This document shows positions 12,001 through 58,049 of a stretch of 64,000 nucleotides of DNA, in pieces. The DNA is from Flavobacteriales bacterium (GTDB taxonomy: Bacteria > Bacteroidota > Bacteroidia > Flavobacteriales_D > Sanyastnellaceae). The notes under the pieces were generated by a model. It was given only the letters and a program-made list of their open reading frames with translations, ran no database searches and was not told where the DNA came from. Made by a program: the position numbers and the translations under genes. Every line of letters starts with the position of its first letter. Positions within the stretch are counted from its first letter, which is position 1. The stretch spans positions 2,557,501 through 2,621,500 of the forward strand of contig JAGYJM010000002.1 of assembly GCA_018402085.1 (NCBI GenBank), written 5' to 3'.

Positions 12001-15000
12001 ACGATAGTAATCGTTTGAACACACTCACTCTCCTCATCACCTTCAAAGATTAAGAAGGTACGCTCAATGATCGTCAGGCAATCACCCTCTTCAATCACTT
12101 CATCCGAAACTTCAACACCGAAGTCACAGTTACCCATACCTGTTGGCACACCGAGCACATCTGCAGAGATGTCTTCGTCGCACTCAACTGTTACATCTTC
12201 AGGGCACTCGATCATGCAACCGCAGTCACCTGGGTAGGTGAAGTTGGTAACATTGAGCGTGCCTGCACCGAAGAGGCCGTCAGTTGCGTTGATACCGAAG
12301 CCAATGACGTCACCGGCATTCGCGAAGAACGACTCAGAACCACTTTGGTTATTCGGGCCTAAATCATCAGTAAGTTGAACAGCAACTCCATTGATATAGA
12401 ATGCTGGATCAAACTCAGGACCGTCAGGAACTCCAGGATCAGCTATATCGCCTGAGACATAATCCCAGTCGAAAGTAAATTCACCGCTAGCAGCAACAAC
12501 AATAGTTGCCTGGGTAAGGATACCAACCTGCTCATTGTCGTTTCCAACAACGGTCATACTGATTTCATCGATATCTACTGAGCCGTCACCGCCACCGAGA
12601 TCAACCGTCCAGTTTGCTGGAGCGTAATCACCAGTGAATCCTTCACCACCCTCTGCAAACTCACATGAACCGTCATCGAAGATCACGTCTGGGTTGTAGT
12701 TACAAGCAGTTTCGTCAGTACAACCTTCTTCACAAGTTTCAACAGTGAATGAAGCACCGGCAACGTCAAGCGCTGCGCAGATATCACCACCACCTTGCTG
12801 GAGGAGTCCGTTCACATCAAATCCGGTTGTTACACCAAACTCTACGATTCCAAGATCAAGTGTTGAAGGATCGTAAACGAGGGTGTGGATCGTGTAAGAA
12901 CCAGCAGTGAGTCCGCCAAAGGCAGGCTCTGCATTTACGTTCTGGATTACAAGACCATCACCTTCAGTCAACACATAAAGAACTGAGTAACCCGCAGGAA
13001 CTACAGGAGCATCGCCCTGTGTAGCTGAAATGTTACCGCCATCTTGTGCACATACTACAGCGTCATCAGAAACGAGTGAACCAGCGGCTGCTTCACATGG
13101 AACTTCACAAACAACCACCGATACTGAAGCACCGGCTACGTCAAGTGAAGCACAAATGTCACCGCCACCTTGCTGGAGGAGTCCGTTCACATCAAATCCT
13201 GTTGTTACACCGAACTCTACAATACCGAGATCGAGTGTAGAAGGATCGTAAACAAGTGTGTGAATGGTATAATCACCTTCTGCAAGACCTGAGAAGGAAG
13301 GAGCAGCGTTAACGTCCTCAATTACCAGTCCTGCGCCAGAAGTCAGTACATAAAGCACTTCGTAATCTGCAGGAACTACCGGAGCTACGTCTACACTTGC
13401 AGAGATGTTACCACCATCCGCAACGCATACCTCGTTTGCATCAGCAACGAGTGAACCAGCGGCTGCTTCACATGGAACTTCACAAACAACAACCGATACT
13501 GAAGCACCGGCTACGTCAAGTGAAGCACAAATATCACCGCCACCTTGCTGGAGGAGCCCGTTCACATCAAATCCTGTTGTTACACCGAACTCTACAATAC
13601 CGAGATCGAGTGTAGAAGGATCGTAAACAAGTGTGTGAATGGTATAATCACCTTCTGCAAGACCTGTGAAGGAAGGAGCAGCGTTAACGTCCTCAATTAC
13701 CAGTCCTGCGCCAGAAGTCAGTACATAAAGCACTTCGTAATCTGCAGGAACTACCGGAGCTACGTCTACACTTGCAGAGATGTTACCACCATCCGCAACG
13801 CATACCTCGCTTGCATCGGCAACGAGAGTTCCGGCGTTTGCTTCGCAAGGACAATCAACTACAGATACAGGAGCGCCCGCTACGTCAAGTGAAGCACAGA
13901 TCGTACCACCACCTTGAGCAAGGAGTCCGTTCACATCAAATCCTGTTGTTACACCGAACTCTACAATTCCGAGATCAAGTGTAGACGCATCATAAACGAG
14001 CGTGTGAATGGTGTAGTCACCCTCAGCAAGACCTGCGAACGCAGGAGAGCCGTTCACGTCTTCAATAACGAGACCAGCACCTGAAGTCAACACGTAAATG
14101 GCATCGTAGCCCGCAGGCACAAATGGATCTGCATTGTGCGAAGCAGAGATTGACCCTCCGTCTTGGAGACATGCTTCAGCAGCATCAGCTTCAAGTGAAC
14201 CAGCGTCAGCTTCACAGCATGAGAGGTACTCACATGAGCCATCGTCTTCTGTAGCGTTGCCGTCAAAGTTACAAGCGGTGTTGTCTGTACAACCAGGAAT
14301 AACTTCAAATTCGCATGAACCATCATCGCCACATGCTGAAGGATCATAGTTTACTGCGTCAGGGTTAAGACAACCTGCTGCACTTACAAATACCGACTGA
14401 TCATTTGAGAGTGCGTAACACCCATCAAGGTCAGCAGCATTCGCACCGATCTCAGCGCCCGAAATTTCAGTGAACGTCAGGTACCAAACGAGGTACTGAC
14501 CAGCGTCGAATGAATCGAAGTCAATGCTAACCTGATCACTGGTTCCAGGAACTGAAGGAATGATATTCAATATTTCAAGTCCGGTAGTGGTCACAACCCA
14601 CGCGGTTGAGGTACCCTCAGAGCCGACGCTGTCGTAGAAGAATTCAATGTTGTCTGCATTTCCGTCTCCGGCGCAAGCCTCACCTTCTCCTGTCACTTCA
14701 CCTGCGGCAACAACCACACAGTTACCGTTGTCAATCACGGCAAGTGGATCAAAATTGCATGCATTGGCGTCTGTACAGCCTTCAGCACATGCTTCAACCG
14801 TGAAGCCAGCACCAGCCACATCAAGAGCAGCACAAATGGTGCCGCCACCTTGAGCGAGAAGTCCGTTGACATCAACACCGGTAGTCACACCAAACTCAAC
14901 AATAGAAAGGTCAAGTGTTGATGGGTCGTATACTAAAGTATGGATCGTGTACTCACCCGCTGCAAGACCACTGAAAGAAGCAGCATCGCTTACATCTTCA

Positions 15001-40095: not shown

Positions 40096-40238
40096 TGAGG
40101 TCGTGTTTGGTTACAGCCCGCAAAGATAGGTAACTGTTAGCGGTCAGCCGTCTGCCGTCTGCAGTTCGTGGTTGGTGGTTCGTGGTCAAAAACCAACCAC
40201 CAACCATTCCCCCGATCCCCGATCCCCGATCCCCGATC
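40096..40238. repeat. Low-complexity spacer with GATCCCC repeats
   Basis: A 143-bp spacer between asnS and the ABC gene. It contains a GCGGTCAGCCGTCTGCCGTC stretch also seen near 5610-5630, a pair of inverted GTGGTTGGTGGTT / AACCAACCACCAAC tracts, and about four tandem copies of CCCCGAT at 40213-40238. Confidence 0.7.
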
Positions 40239-40928
40239 CTACCCAACAGGGGTATCCGACTCCACCACCCCATCACGCAGTCGCACAATGCGCTTTGTGT
40301 GCTTGGCGATGTCTTCTTCGTGGGTGACCAGAATGATCGTGTTGCCTTGTTCATGGATCTCTTCAAAGAGCTTCATGATCTCATGAGAGGTCTTCGTATC
40401 GAGGTTACCGGTGGGCTCGTCAGCAAGGATGATTGACGGACGATTCACGAGGGCCCGGGCCACAGCCACACGCTGACGTTGTCCGCCGCTAAGCTCATTG
40501 GGATTGTGATTCATACGGTCACCGAGACCAACCTGTGTAAGCACTTCTTTCCCGCGGGCATCGCGTTCTGCCTTGGTAAACCCGCCGTAAATCATGGGCA
40601 GCGCCACATTTTCGAGCGAACTGTAGCGCGGTAGCAGGTTAAACGTCTGAAAGACAAAGCCGATTTCTTTATTCCTGATCTCAGCGAGCTCATCTTCGGT
40701 GAGGCTGTCAACGGCCTTACCATTGAGCACATAGCTCCCGTCAGTAGGCGTGTCAAGGCAGCCGAGAACATTCATCAGCGTTGACTTACCGCTGCCTGAA
40801 GGCCCCATCAATGCTACATATTCGCCGCGTTCAATAGTTAAATCAACGCCGTCGAGTGCGCGCACTTCCTGTTCGCCCACCTGGTAAATCTTTGTGATAC
40901 CTTCTACAGTTATGAGTGGTTCGGCCAT
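40239..40928 (-). CDS. ABC transporter ATP-binding protein, LolD/MacB type
   Basis: 229 aa from [20 protein letters not shown]; the frame starts 39 codons earlier without support. Walker [13 protein letters not shown] near 43, signature [15 protein letters not shown] near 143, Walker [13 protein letters not shown]. The length and the [16 protein letters not shown] stretch place it in the MacB/LolD/FtsE group that serves lipoprotein release or antimicrobial export. The permease is not in this window. Confidence 0.9.
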
Positions 40929-55812: not shown

Positions 55813-56595
55813 TCAGTAGCGCAGACGGTGATGTTGCTTGTGCATTCCCTGTCGACGTAGTAACCATCCCATTTCGAACAAATCAAGACTAAGTTGGAAG
55901 GACTCGTCTATTGTAAGTTTCTTCCAAGCCCTGTGCATGTCACTTGACCAGTGGATGTCGTCTACTACGATGATGCCACCCTCGCTAAGGTGAGGCTTTA
56001 AACGGCTGGTGTAATCAAGCAGTGCTTCACCGATGTGATGTCCGTCAATGAAAATAAGGTCGAATGTTGACGAAGGTTCCAGCTCTGAAAGAAACGCATC
56101 GAATGAAGCATTGACGATCCGAGCTTGAAGTCCGCAGTTCTCCAAAACGCTTTCAGCTTCTTCGACGAGGCTGGCGGCTCCTTCTACGGAAATCACATCT
56201 GCACCTGAAGCAGCCAGGTATGCGGTGGTTAACCCCACCGAAGTACCTAATTCAAGAATCTGTTCTGAATTCGAAAAGGACGCGAGTCTATAAAGCGCTC
56301 GTGCATATTTAGGTTTCTTGGCACTTATACGGGTGATTTCTGCTACTCTACGGGTGCTCCCTTTCATACGTTTTGACCCGGCTCCCAGGTCTTCAACACG
56401 AATGAGGCGTGTGTCTTGTAACAAGCGATTTCGCTGTCTTTCGATTTTATCAAAGAGGTAATAGTGCTTCTCCTCGTTCAATACTTCATCGAATAGCTCG
56501 TAGAGGTAAGGCGAGTGCGCTTTGTGAACCCCTTTGGCTTCGAGTACATAACGTAAGTAGGCGATGGCTCTTTGCACGATGTAAAGAAAAGCCAT
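55813..56595 (-). CDS. SAM-dependent O-methyltransferase-like protein (class I)
   Basis: 260 aa. A helical N-terminus is followed by a Rossmann-type SAM-binding fold. Motif I is ILELGTSVGLTTAYLA near 113, motif II VISVEGAASLVEEAESVL, then FDLIFIDGHHIGEALLDY and GGIIVVDDIHW, as in class I O-methyltransferases of small molecules. Substrate unknown. Its 5' end lies 33 bp from the array promoter on the opposite strand. Confidence 0.85.
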   Translation of the reverse strand: MAFLYIVQRAIAYLRYVLEAKGVHKAHSPYLYELFDEVLNEEKHYYLFDKIERQRNRLLQDTRLIRVEDLGAGSKRMKGSTRRVAEITRISAKKPKYARALYRLASFSNSEQILELGTSVGLTTAYLAASGADVISVEGAASLVEEAESVLENCGLQARIVNASFDAFLSELEPSSTFDLIFIDGHHIGEALLDYTSRLKPHLSEGGIIVVDDIHWSSDMHRAWKKLTIDESFQLSLDLFEMGWLLRRQGMHKQHHRLRY

Positions 56596-56628
56596 ACGTT
56601 GGGTTCATCAAATTTTTTACCCGCCGAG

Positions 56629-56658
56629 TTGACCCCGTTGCAAAAAGTTCTATATTTG
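56629..56658 (+). promoter_or_regulatory. Strong promoter of the tRNA-Val array
   Basis: TTGAC at 56629-56633 and TATATTTG at 56651-56658, 17 bp apart, a near-ideal Bacteroidota TTG / TAnnTTTG pair. Transcription would start near 56665 and read through the whole array into tRNA-Val. No other promoter was seen before 57281. Confidence 0.75.
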
Positions 56659-56688
56659 CAGTCCTGAAAACGCAAAGGCGTTGAAAAA

Positions 56689-57280
56689 GGGCGATTAGCT
56701 CAGTTGGTTCAGAGCACTCCGACAACGTCGGAGGGGTCACTGGCCGAAAAAAAAGAAATTAGGGGCGATTAGCTCAGTTGGTTCAGAGCACTCCGACAAC
56801 GTCGGAGGGGTCACTGACCAGGAAAAAGAAAATTAGGGGCGATTAGCTCAGTTGGTTCAGAGCACTCCGACAACGTCGGAGGGGTCACTGACCAGGAAAA
56901 AGAAAATTAGGGGCGATTAGCTCAGTTGGTTCAGAGCACTCCGATTACATCGGAAGGGTCACTGGCCGAAAAAAAAGAAATTAGGGGCGATTAGCTCAGT
57001 TGGTTCAGAGCACTCCGACAACGTCGGAGGGGTCACTGACCAGGAAAAAGAAAATTAGGGGCGATTAGCTCAGTTGGTTCAGAGCACTCCGACAACGTCG
57101 GAGGGGTCACTGACCGAAAAAATAGAAATTAGGGGCGATTAGCTCAGTTGGTTCAGAGCACTCCGATTACATCGGAGGGGTCACTGGCCGAAAAACAAGA
57201 AATTAGGGGCGATTAGCTCAGTTGGTTCAGAGCACTCCGACAACGTCGGAGGGGTCACTGACCGAAAAAATAGAAATTAG
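56689..57280 (+). repeat. Tandem array of eight 74-bp tRNA-Val-derived units
   Basis: Units start at 56689, 56763, 56837, 56911, 56985, 57059, 57133 and 57207, each exactly 74 bp, in register with tRNA-Val at 57281. Unit bases 1-28 equal the tRNA 5' end (acceptor strand and D-arm). Bases 29-45 are CTCCG-ACAACGT-CGGAG, or CTCCG-ATTACAT-CGGRG in units 4 and 7: the same length as the tRNA anticodon arm, with AAC or TAC at the anticodon position. Bases 47-57 can form GGTC-ACT-GACC or GGTC-ACT-GGCC. An A-rich spacer ending AAATTAG follows. T-arm and 3' acceptor strand are missing, so a normal tRNA cannot fold. Units 2, 3 and 5 look identical; units 6 and 8 as well. Confidence 0.9.
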
Positions 57281-57358
57281 GGGCGATTAGCTCAGTTGGT
57301 TCAGAGCATCTGCCTTACAAGCAGAGGGTCACTGGTTCGAATCCAGTATCGCCCACCA
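57281..57358 (+). tRNA. tRNA-Val(UAC), CCA encoded
   Basis: 78 nt including CCA. Acceptor GGGCGAT with ATCGCCC, anticodon loop CTTACAA (anticodon TAC), T-arm CACTGG-TTCGAAT-CCAGTA. It follows directly on the last 74-bp unit. The other two tRNAs here lack encoded CCA. Confidence 0.95.
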
Positions 57359-57366
57359 CTAACACG

Positions 57367-57396
57367 AAAGCGAGACCGAAAGGTGCTCGCTTTTTT
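57367..57396 (+). terminator. Intrinsic terminator of the tRNA-Val transcript
   Basis: AAAGCGAG-ACC-GAAA-GGT-(G)-CTCGC followed by TTTTTT: a long stem with one bulge and a GAAA tetraloop. The same sequence recurs at 57783-57812 and 62939-62972. Confidence 0.87.
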
Positions 57397-57415
57397 GTTG
57401 CCTAAACGTTTAGCT

Positions 57416-57673
57416 ATGCCCTCAGCTTATATTCTGTTCTCTCAGCGTCTCGACCGGTACTATGTGGGTTCTACCTCTGGCAAAGTCGAAGAACGTTTGC
57501 GTCGTCATTTGACAGCGAGAAGCGGTTTTACTTCCAAGGCTCGTGACTGGGAGGTCGTTTTCCAAGAAGAGTTCTCATTGAAATCGGATGCCATGAAACG
57601 AGAGCGACAAATCAAGTCATGGAAATCACGCAAGATGATCGACAAACTGATAGCTTCCTCATCATCAGTTTAG
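57416..57673 (+). CDS. GIY-YIG family nuclease, small
   Basis: 85 aa from MPSAYILFSQRLDRYYVGST; the open frame reaches back into the tRNA but this is the natural start. GIY-YIG core as YIL ... YVG at 5-18, the conserved Arg in VEERLRRH, and the catalytic Glu region in KRERQIKSWKSRK. Single-domain proteins of this type (UvrC N-terminal/YhbQ-like) are common in Bacteroidota; some GIY-YIG enzymes are homing endonucleases. It sits between tRNA-Val with its terminator and a second copy of both. Its TAG stop is formed by the first bases of that tRNA-like copy (TTTAGCTCAG). Confidence 0.88.
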   Translation: MPSAYILFSQRLDRYYVGSTSGKVEERLRRHLTARSGFTSKARDWEVVFQEEFSLKSDAMKRERQIKSWKSRKMIDKLIASSSSV

Positions 57674-57774
57674 CTCAGTTGGTTCAGGCATCCCGACGCA
57701 GTCGGGAGGGTCACTGGTTTGAACTAAGCGCAGCCATCTCACGACCGCAGGGAGTAATCCAGTATCGCCCACCA
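57670..57774 (+). pseudogene. tRNA-Val-like remnant with insertion in the T-loop
   Basis: Begins TAGCTCAGTTGGTTCAG as tRNA-Val, with two bases lost before GCA. The anticodon-arm position holds TCCCG-ACGCAGT-CGGGA. Then GGGTCACTGGTT matches tRNA-Val, about 38 extra bases (GAACTAAGCGCAGCC ... GCAGGGAGTAA) interrupt the T-loop, and TCCAGTATCGCCCACCA restores the tRNA 3' end. No matching 5' acceptor strand, so not a working tRNA. Confidence 0.85.
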
Positions 57775-57782
57775 CTAACACG

Positions 57783-57812
57783 AAAGCGAGACCGAAAGGT
57801 GCTCGCTTTTTT
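57783..57812 (+). terminator. Second copy of the tRNA-Val terminator
   Basis: Same hairpin and T-run as 57367-57396. The duplicated block runs from the tRNA-like copy through CACTAACACG and the terminator to GTTGC. Confidence 0.83.
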
Positions 57813-58049
57813 GTTGCATAATATTCCATGTTCGTGAGCCAGTAGCCTTAAACGTGGTCTATTGTCAGCTTTGACATCGCAGTTCTGACGTTTCAAACAC
57901 TCATTCGGCTACTTTACCGTTTTTTACCCTCACAATACATGGCACCGAATTAGCTTTGGCGTAACGGTGCAGATAAATTGCCCACCTTCGTATGGCAATA
58001 AATACACCAACGAACAGCCCTCGTTATTCAAGAAACTGACGAGCTACAA

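Follow-up and report, generated by a model that had tools for sequence, protein, structure and literature searches.

A tandem array of truncated tRNA-Val copies in a Flavobacteriales genome is one end of a larger, possibly homing-like, GIY-YIG element

Why should eight copies of a truncated tRNA, all of the same length, stand directly in front of a working tRNA-Val(UAC)? We address this question in a stretch of 64,000 nucleotides from a Flavobacteriales bacterium (hereafter the window; contig JAGYJM010000002.1, positions 2,557,501 to 2,621,500), starting from an earlier note that described the array and offered either homogenisation by recombination or a use for the RNA as its explanation. Our analysis reveals that the array is not a stand-alone feature but one end of a larger element, which reaches past position 57358 and includes a GIY-YIG gene as well as a ninth hairpin unit, which differs in type. 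The order is promoter, 5' units, tRNA, terminator, GIY-YIG gene, 3' unit and terminator copy, with the following features:

56651..56658, + strand: TATATTTG box, putative tRNA-Val promoter, 30 nt ahead of the first unit
56689..57280, + strand: array of eight 74-bp 5'-type units, adjoining the intact tRNA-Val
57281..57358, + strand: intact tRNA-Val(UAC) with encoded CCA (ARAGORN, Rfam)
57340..57405, + strand: direct repeat copy 1, tRNA 3' half and terminator (repeat search)
57359..57405, + strand: intrinsic terminator of the tRNA, GCGAG...CTCGC and a T run, copied at 57775-57821
57416..57673, + strand: GIY-YIG nuclease gene, 85 aa, single minimal domain (PF01541)
57670..57774, + strand: 3'-type unit, the ninth hairpin unit (sequence, repeat search)
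57691..57707, + strand: palindrome of the 3' unit, TCCCGAC GCA GTCGGGA (motif scan)
57756..57821, + strand: direct repeat copy 2, tRNA 3' half and terminator copy, 66 bp, 98% identical to copy 1

The 5' units start at 56689, 56763, 56837, 56911, 56985, 57059, 57133 and 57207, each is exactly 74 bp long, and the first base past the array (57281) is base 1 of the tRNA; the unit coordinates, ARAGORN and TRF (period 74, 8.4 copies, score 1059) agree on the register that the earlier note had described. Each unit consists of tRNA-Val bases 1-28, a palindromic arm, GGGTCACTG and an A-rich spacer leading to the next unit. Bases 1-28 are identical between the tRNA and all eight units, and the 12 variable columns of the 74-column alignment all lie at column 35 or later, which confirms that the 5' part is perfectly kept. 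The hairpin does occupy the position of the anticodon arm and has its length of 17 nt (7 bp and a 3-nt loop; 6 bp in unit 4). Two statements of the earlier note need to be narrowed: the T loop and everything beyond it in the tRNA are absent from the units as claimed, but GGGTCACTG preserves the variable loop together with the 5' strand of the T stem, and the small second hairpin is real, yet it is made from this same tRNA sequence. The array holds two versions of the palindrome, CCGAC-AAC-GTCGG and CCGAT-TAC-ATCGG, which differ on both sides of one pair; units 4 and 7 carry this double change from C:G to T:A, and their loop, TAC, is the anticodon triplet of tRNA-Val itself. Units 2, 3 and 5 are identical, as are units 6 and 8, units 4 and 7 differ at 2 sites, and the likeness between units is highest at lag 3, which fits unequal exchange.

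Neither ARAGORN nor Rfam recognised the 5' units as tRNAs, and tRNA-Val was the sole tRNA called at the locus; hence, the units do not fold and score as members of a functional tRNA cluster. The best matches of tRNA-Val elsewhere in its own genome are other tRNAs, at no more than 83% identity. A known RNA family for the units was sought in Rfam both at the gathering cut-off and at E 1, and tRNA alone was returned. RNA folds pointed to an extended hairpin between the D loop and the sequence behind the palindrome, the score of which was not clearly above chance (5.67 vs. 5.39 for 54 5' units; 6.00 vs. 5.64 for 28 3' units). Elsewhere, the window holds a tandem repeat of period 375 at 12750-14089 (3.6 copies, 85% match) and a perfect CCCCGAT repeat at 40210-40239 (4.3 times).

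Behind the tRNA, the 66-bp direct repeat, composed of part of the tRNA 3' half and the terminator, flanks the nuclease gene on both sides. The stop codon of the gene is the TAG of the psi-tRNA's TTAGCTCAG, and the gene thus overlaps the 3' unit. This unit begins with a D arm that has no 5' acceptor strand, followed by a palindrome in place of the anticodon arm, a variable loop and a T arm carrying an insertion of about 33 nt; its 3' acceptor strand and CCA are intact. The palindrome is the single match to TCCCGAN{3,8}TCGGGA in the window (0.02 expected), and it is identical to the 3' palindrome at the tRNA-Asp of the same genome.

The 85-aa protein matched PF01541 with 54.6 bits, no other family model reached its cut-off, and no match was obtained in NCBIfam or among PDB sequences. 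Its AlphaFold model (pLDDT 94) is a bare GIY-YIG domain and has no separate DNA-binding domain. The top fold match was 1zg2 (UPF0213 BH0048; E 2.5e-3, prob 1.00), followed by Slx1 (6seh), 1ywl, 4xm5, I-TevI (1ln0) and UvrC (1yd5); none reached E <= 0.001, though the top ones were of high probability. The residues Y, Y, R, H and E, which we take to be of the catalytic type, are kept at 98% or more in 95 distinct GIY-YIG domains. The median dN/dS was 0.14 (10 of 20 pairs, those with usable dS), with 0.09 and 0.17 between tandem nuclease copies, and by these sequence comparisons the nuclease is under purifying selection. Phages and plasmids were rejected as carriers, as the search of a phage and a plasmid collection gave zero matches to the nuclease at E 1e-5. 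In the own genome, the sole close nuclease gene is the one at tRNA-Val, the second match being distant (E 5.6e-4, 33% identity).

The layout is seen again across Bacteroidota, where several tRNA isotypes host it. A search of 61 family genomes with the last two units and the tRNA as query revealed seven further loci with a 5' unit ahead of tRNA-Val (L012-L016, L019 and L025), whose palindromes differ from those of the window; the acceptor sequence of the unit equals that of the adjacent tRNA in L012, L015 and L016 and is decayed in L013, L014, L019 and L025. In G008, three units lie 80 bp apart, and the contig stops just past the tRNA terminator. The congeners G012 and G032 each have one decayed 5' unit, its palindrome intact or nearly so, with a nuclease fragment in G032 and no nuclease in G012. 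When 62 family genomes were searched with the nuclease (E <= 1e-12), 7 matches in 6 genomes were found, all of them beside tRNA-Val(UAC) with hairpin units, even though the hairpins were not part of the query. Close nuclease matches were present in 35 of 198 class genomes. A same-strand tRNA lay within 500 bp in 23 of the 29 class-level loci fetched, in every case upstream; five of the other six are at contig edges (1 to 431 upstream bases, although the 431 of L201 should have sufficed to show a tRNA), and L194 is internal. Hairpin units outside tRNA genes were found in 14 of the 29 class loci, with a CCG/CGG stem in 14 of 14, and the remaining 15 showed none (the count leaves out L198 and L200, where the flagged hairpins are ordinary tRNA-Ala arms). 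Hence, the link between units and GIY-YIG gene, raised in the earlier note, is strongly supported; that the array serves the nuclease as a target is one option among others.

A broader search used a pattern of tRNA flank plus TCCCGA...TCGGGA, which matched 9 of 395 phylum genomes (0 with the reversed control) and at least 118 stretches of public genomes; the titles name Bacteroidota for all but 10 among the matches listed. Three class loci are shared with this set (L185/L161, L188/L041 and L191/L042). Some matches come from MAGs with labels outside Bacteroidota (L079, L089, L094, L098, L167, L088, L105 and L172; Marinimicrobia, Deltaproteobacteria, Dehalococcoidia, Calditrichota, Ignavibacteria and Chlorobiota), and these reflect either a wider spread or binning error. 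Before counting, repeated own-genome loci, L177-L182 and L155 (on the contig of L013) were dropped; L045 duplicates L088, and its removal alters no result. Among the matches listed, there are at least 213 hairpin units in at least 110 loci, and the common order, on a single strand, is 5' unit(s), tRNA, GIY-YIG gene and 3' unit, with parts missing at some loci. For these 213 units, a GIY-YIG gene within 600 bp is on the same strand in 116 cases, on the opposite strand in 0 and absent in 97; 48 of the 110 listed loci have no such gene, some of them being contig ends. Thirty-five of the 213 listed units fall inside ARAGORN tRNA calls, as accepted psi-tRNAs or ordinary arms, and a CCG stem filter leaves 202 listed units, 136 of them distinct. 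Among the matches listed, 75 of the 103 distinct palindromes by a tRNA are at Val(UAC); Lys, Met, Asn, Gly, Ala, Ile, Val(CAC/GAC) and Thr, as well as Pro and Arg, also serve as hosts. L116 combines four 80-bp 5' units with two pairs of nuclease and 3' unit, and tandem arrays are also present in L082, L164, L170 and L175. In L170 (Cyclobacterium salsum), the interval from tRNA-Ile to tRNA-Ala, which may be an rRNA operon spacer, holds eight 5' units derived from tRNA-Ala at a spacing of about 80 bp, and L165 is similar. Across related loci, the number of 5' units ranges from 0 to 8 and the period from 73 to 117 bp. This variation in number, period and decay, together with the identical units and the lag-3 likeness, supports the homogenisation by recombination proposed earlier. 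Literature searches, covering titles and the starts of abstracts, with subscription papers and preprints mostly outside their reach, found no description of such an element.

Since the search pattern itself sets TCCCGA/TCGGGA and the tRNA flanks, the conservation of these letters in the pattern loci is uninformative. The first pair inside the searched motif lies outside these demands, yet it is complementary in 122 of 132 palindromes (loop of at least 5, deduplicated, among the matches listed), as compared with 57.5 for shuffled partners (sd 5.6, maximum 78 in 5000 shuffles; mean 57.3, sd 5.5 and maximum 74 before one duplicate was removed). Hence, either selection or some copying process maintains the palindrome. 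One pair further in, beyond pair 7, complementarity did not clearly exceed the random expectation (37 of 81 vs. 32.2, sd 3.2). Where both ends are present, the palindromes on the two sides of a locus are similar, with a mean edit distance of 2.64 vs. 4.22 when shuffled (11 loci; 0 of 5000 shuffles as low); the window is the locus where they are least alike (edit distance 8, with the TAC version used). Moreover, the palindrome contains the anticodon of the neighbouring tRNA in 31 of 103 cases among the matches listed (shuffled mean 19.9, maximum 29 of 2000). For part of the units, this retention speaks against a foreign palindrome having been pasted into every arm.

Related Pedobacter genomes offer a natural experiment, in which one locus can be followed with and without the element. 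The flank of an orthologous tRNA-Val locus matched 71 of 79 genomes, and 68 loci were read, the majority of which are one or two plain tRNAs. A nuclease or its remnant was found in 14 of the 68 loci, 5' units in 12 (13 flagged, L265 being spurious), and 3' units or psi-tRNAs were flagged in 6; in L285, the units behind the tRNAs scored as 5' units despite their 3' position, and decayed copies, for example the one that follows the tRNA in L282, escape flagging. On a tree of the upstream flank comprising 65 species (L317, L320 and L324 were omitted, as their flank was too short), any element part was flagged in 21 species (one spurious), scattered over the tree, and 44 were unflagged; at least 11 changes are required for the nuclease (14 carriers) and at least 16 for any flagged part. 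Thus, occupied and empty alleles of one locus coexist, as for a homing endonuclease. Where a 5' unit precedes the second tRNA, the inter-tRNA distance is greater by 91-93 bp, and the additional sequence sits directly ahead of that tRNA. L301 carries the GIY-YIG gene between direct repeats of about 72 bp with one mismatch, composed of the tRNA 3' half and terminator. In L294 the nuclease tail and the 3' unit remain, L281 and L288 retain nuclease sequence and no 3' unit, and L285 has at least 10 further units, about 122 bp apart, running to the end of the stretch. In a comparison bearing on horizontal transfer, the distances of the GIY-YIG genes, of which there are only 7, correlated with those of the flank with a Mantel r of 0.52 (254 of 2000 permutations as high). 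Past the second tRNA-Val, L095, L275, L277 and L282 hold decayed tRNA copies in which a palindrome resembling CCCGAT...ATCGGG is located at the T arm instead of the anticodon arm.

Related units also occur at other tRNA genes of the own genome: behind tRNA-Asn stand 13 units of the 3' type, spaced at about 111 bp, and tRNA-Asp carries a single unit of each type; no nuclease gene was present in the stretches read at either tRNA. The motif TCCCGAN{3,8}TCGGGA occurs 79 times in this genome vs. 4 in the reversed control, 4 times in each of two congeners and above the control in many of 60 relatives. Many of the own-genome copies examined (e.g., L232-L246 and L252) belong to a longer REP-like element away from tRNAs, with the sequence GCGC.T-TCCCGATnnATCGGGA-CAAGT..GCGC. 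Near position 2202300 of contig C2 (L247, ~1250-1930), a six-unit tandem array with a spacing of about 108 bp, not derived from a tRNA, lies beside a gene, and five of its six units carry the exact palindrome TCCCGATGAATCGGGA. The palindrome of L221, also away from tRNA elements, has the appearance of a terminator.

Several known systems share features with this element. The GIY-YIG gene segB of phage T6 lies beside tRNA genes and is reported to drive tandem amplification (PMC13096335). The likeness to SegB of T4/T6 consists in a small GIY-YIG gene adjoining tRNA genes and in tRNA-containing tandem repeats formed by recombination (same source). Unlike SegB, the present element lies in bacterial chromosomes and had no match in the phage collection; it repeats truncated tRNAs in which a palindrome takes the place of the anticodon arm, it arranges 5' and 3' units in order around an intact tRNA, and its cutting is presumed. 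In the passages available from a survey of the GIY-YIG superfamily (PMC1564403), "tRNA" appears in other contexts only and "Bacteroid" is absent. Regarding fold, our protein, which matches PF01541, resembles the UPF0213 or bare GIY-YIG proteins and Slx1 (top matches 1zg2 and 6seh), and its bare fold of 85 aa falls in the range of about 85-95 aa of the UPF0213-like proteins. Slx1, which acts on branched DNA, has a second domain that the 85-aa nuclease does not have, and I-TevI possesses a DNA-binding part besides its GIY-YIG domain. Homing endonucleases agree with our element in the intact gene with conserved catalytic-type residues and purifying selection, and differ in that no DNA-binding part stands beside the GIY-YIG domain here. 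REP/BIME palindromes are short, conserved, interspersed and in arrays, and are partnered by RAYT transposases. In our element the ORF between tRNA and 3' unit is a GIY-YIG gene and not a Y1 transposase, and the palindromes lie within tRNA remnants, replacing the anticodon arm. GIY-YIG genes are also carried by group I introns that reside in tRNA genes. However, no intron was matched by Rfam at 56500-58000 (E 1), no intron RNA splits one tRNA into two exons, and the element contains an intact tRNA, both split halves being dead. Genomic islands integrate at tRNA genes, leaving a working tRNA and a direct repeat of the tRNA 3' half; the present element differs in that the nuclease is its only ORF, with no integrase, in its size of a few hundred bp plus units, and in that its direct repeat takes in the terminator.

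Given this, we are moderately inclined to regard the array as the expanded left end of a small homing-like GIY-YIG element that resides in tRNA genes and leaves a working tRNA behind. We infer that such an element cuts DNA and is mobile, and that the palindrome has a role in it. The nuclease would introduce a break or nick into the tRNA gene or into the palindrome, a sequence that might be extruded in branched form, and repair from an element-bearing copy would install the element, with the tRNA halves as homology arms. The target would be divided at the anticodon arm: a break at the arm of an empty tRNA would leave one intact tRNA flanked by two halves, the 5' half to its left and the 3' half to its right, each carrying a palindrome. 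Since the tRNA starts are identical, repeated breaks and unequal exchange between these 28-bp segments could generate more 5' units (74 bp each in this case). The part comprising nuclease and 3' unit could be multiplied or deleted through exchange between tRNA 3' halves and terminators. Under the homing-like model, the array would need no function of its own. Several points count against this model. Among the matches listed, many units and loci have no GIY-YIG gene nearby (97 of 213 and 48 of 110), and at the own tRNA-Asn and tRNA-Asp, which are not contig ends, one would need to suppose that the nuclease acts in trans or has disappeared. Of the 29 class loci, 6 have no tRNA within 500 bp and 15 no hairpin unit. 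G012 and G032 retain a 5' unit although the nuclease gene there is missing or a mere fragment, and in the window the 5' and 3' palindromes are less alike than at any other locus compared. In the simplest version of homing, the intact tRNA, with its anticodon arm still in place, would stay a target; and the protein, as modelled, is bare, with no DNA-binding domain in its 85 aa. A more specific version, "break and rescue", in which a minimal GIY-YIG nuclease attacks an essential tRNA gene at the anticodon arm, is copied in through repair over the tRNA halves as homology arms and always leaves or supplies one working tRNA, must be considered doubtful as a joint claim. The conserved palindrome would then mark the site as consumed or protected, and through it derivatives that lack the nuclease gene, such as those at tRNA-Asn and tRNA-Asp, could be targeted in trans and grow into arrays.

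The main competitors concern the RNA, chance duplication and the palindrome itself. As regards the RNA, the units would be transcribed with the tRNA and serve as a decoy for tRNA-binding proteins or RNases, a leader for processing or attenuation, or a source of small RNAs resembling tRNA halves, the dose being set by array length. The TATATTTG box, which we take to be a Bacteroidota-type -7 box (TAnnTTTG), precedes unit 1 and thereby places the units in the presumed leader of the tRNA transcript. Among the matches listed, 35 of 50 loci have such a box no more than 150 nt ahead of their first 5' unit (3.7 expected when shuffled), and 0 of 50 have one in the interval from the last hairpin to the tRNA; hence, the 5' units are, as judged from this arrangement, probably co-transcribed with the tRNA. 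The covarying palindrome, the better folding of six window units than of shuffles (z -2.4 to -3.2) and the invariant first 28 columns (P = 0.0018, were the 12 variable columns randomly placed) would also suit an RNA function, and the unit outlives the nuclease in the congeners G012 and G032, so that it could have a use of its own. However, exchange with the tRNA would equally give an invariant 5' half, a like hairpin is present in 3' units, behind the tRNA terminator, the predicted extra D-loop stem is no better than chance, and Rfam finds tRNA alone. Furthermore, relatives differ in unit number, spacer and period, and no unit is present at the majority of the 68 Pedobacter loci; the earlier note had held that varying copy number and spacing and free decay in related genomes would speak against an RNA use, and what we find comes close to this. 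Beyond the probable transcription, we found no direct evidence for the decoy or regulator RNA, or for pairing with the tRNA 3' half, that had been suggested, and we regard an RNA function as quite unlikely.

It is also rather unlikely that a tRNA fragment was merely expanded by slippage or unequal exchange, with the GIY-YIG gene a passenger or a separate element that tolerates the site. Such neutral duplication would account for the higher-order pattern among unit variants, the varying copy number and decayed units of relatives, and the nuclease-free units at tRNA-Asn and tRNA-Asp. Slippage would not produce the palindrome covariation, and the exchange of the anticodon arm for a palindrome is seen again in different families and at different isotypes, with the CCG stem in 14 of 14 loci found without the pattern's bias; the one-stranded association with GIY-YIG genes (116 same, 0 opposite, among the matches listed) and the matched 5' and 3' palindromes within a locus likewise speak against it. 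Alternatively, the palindrome could be the mobile part, acted on anywhere by a REP/RAYT-like or other enzyme, the tRNA with its GIY-YIG gene being just one site. The genomic excess of the motif (79 vs. 4, and in many of 60 relatives), the REP-like copies far from tRNAs and the T-arm palindromes of some Pedobacter remnants favour this explanation, which we nevertheless judge improbable: the ORF between tRNA and 3' unit encodes a GIY-YIG protein and no Y1 transposase, at least one palindrome elsewhere (L221) resembles a terminator, and the anticodon held in 31 of 103 cases, among the matches listed, makes part of the palindromes look remodelled from the local arm.

If the homing-like reading is true, a class of self-spreading DNA that is common in a major bacterial phylum would have been overlooked, its members being taken for tRNA pseudogenes or stray GIY-YIG genes. 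Such an element would account for one origin of tandem tRNA-like repeats and of changes in tRNA copy number, and would provide a bacterial counterpart of the phage SegB-driven amplification. Moreover, how a nuclease persists inside essential tRNA genes would become a testable question.
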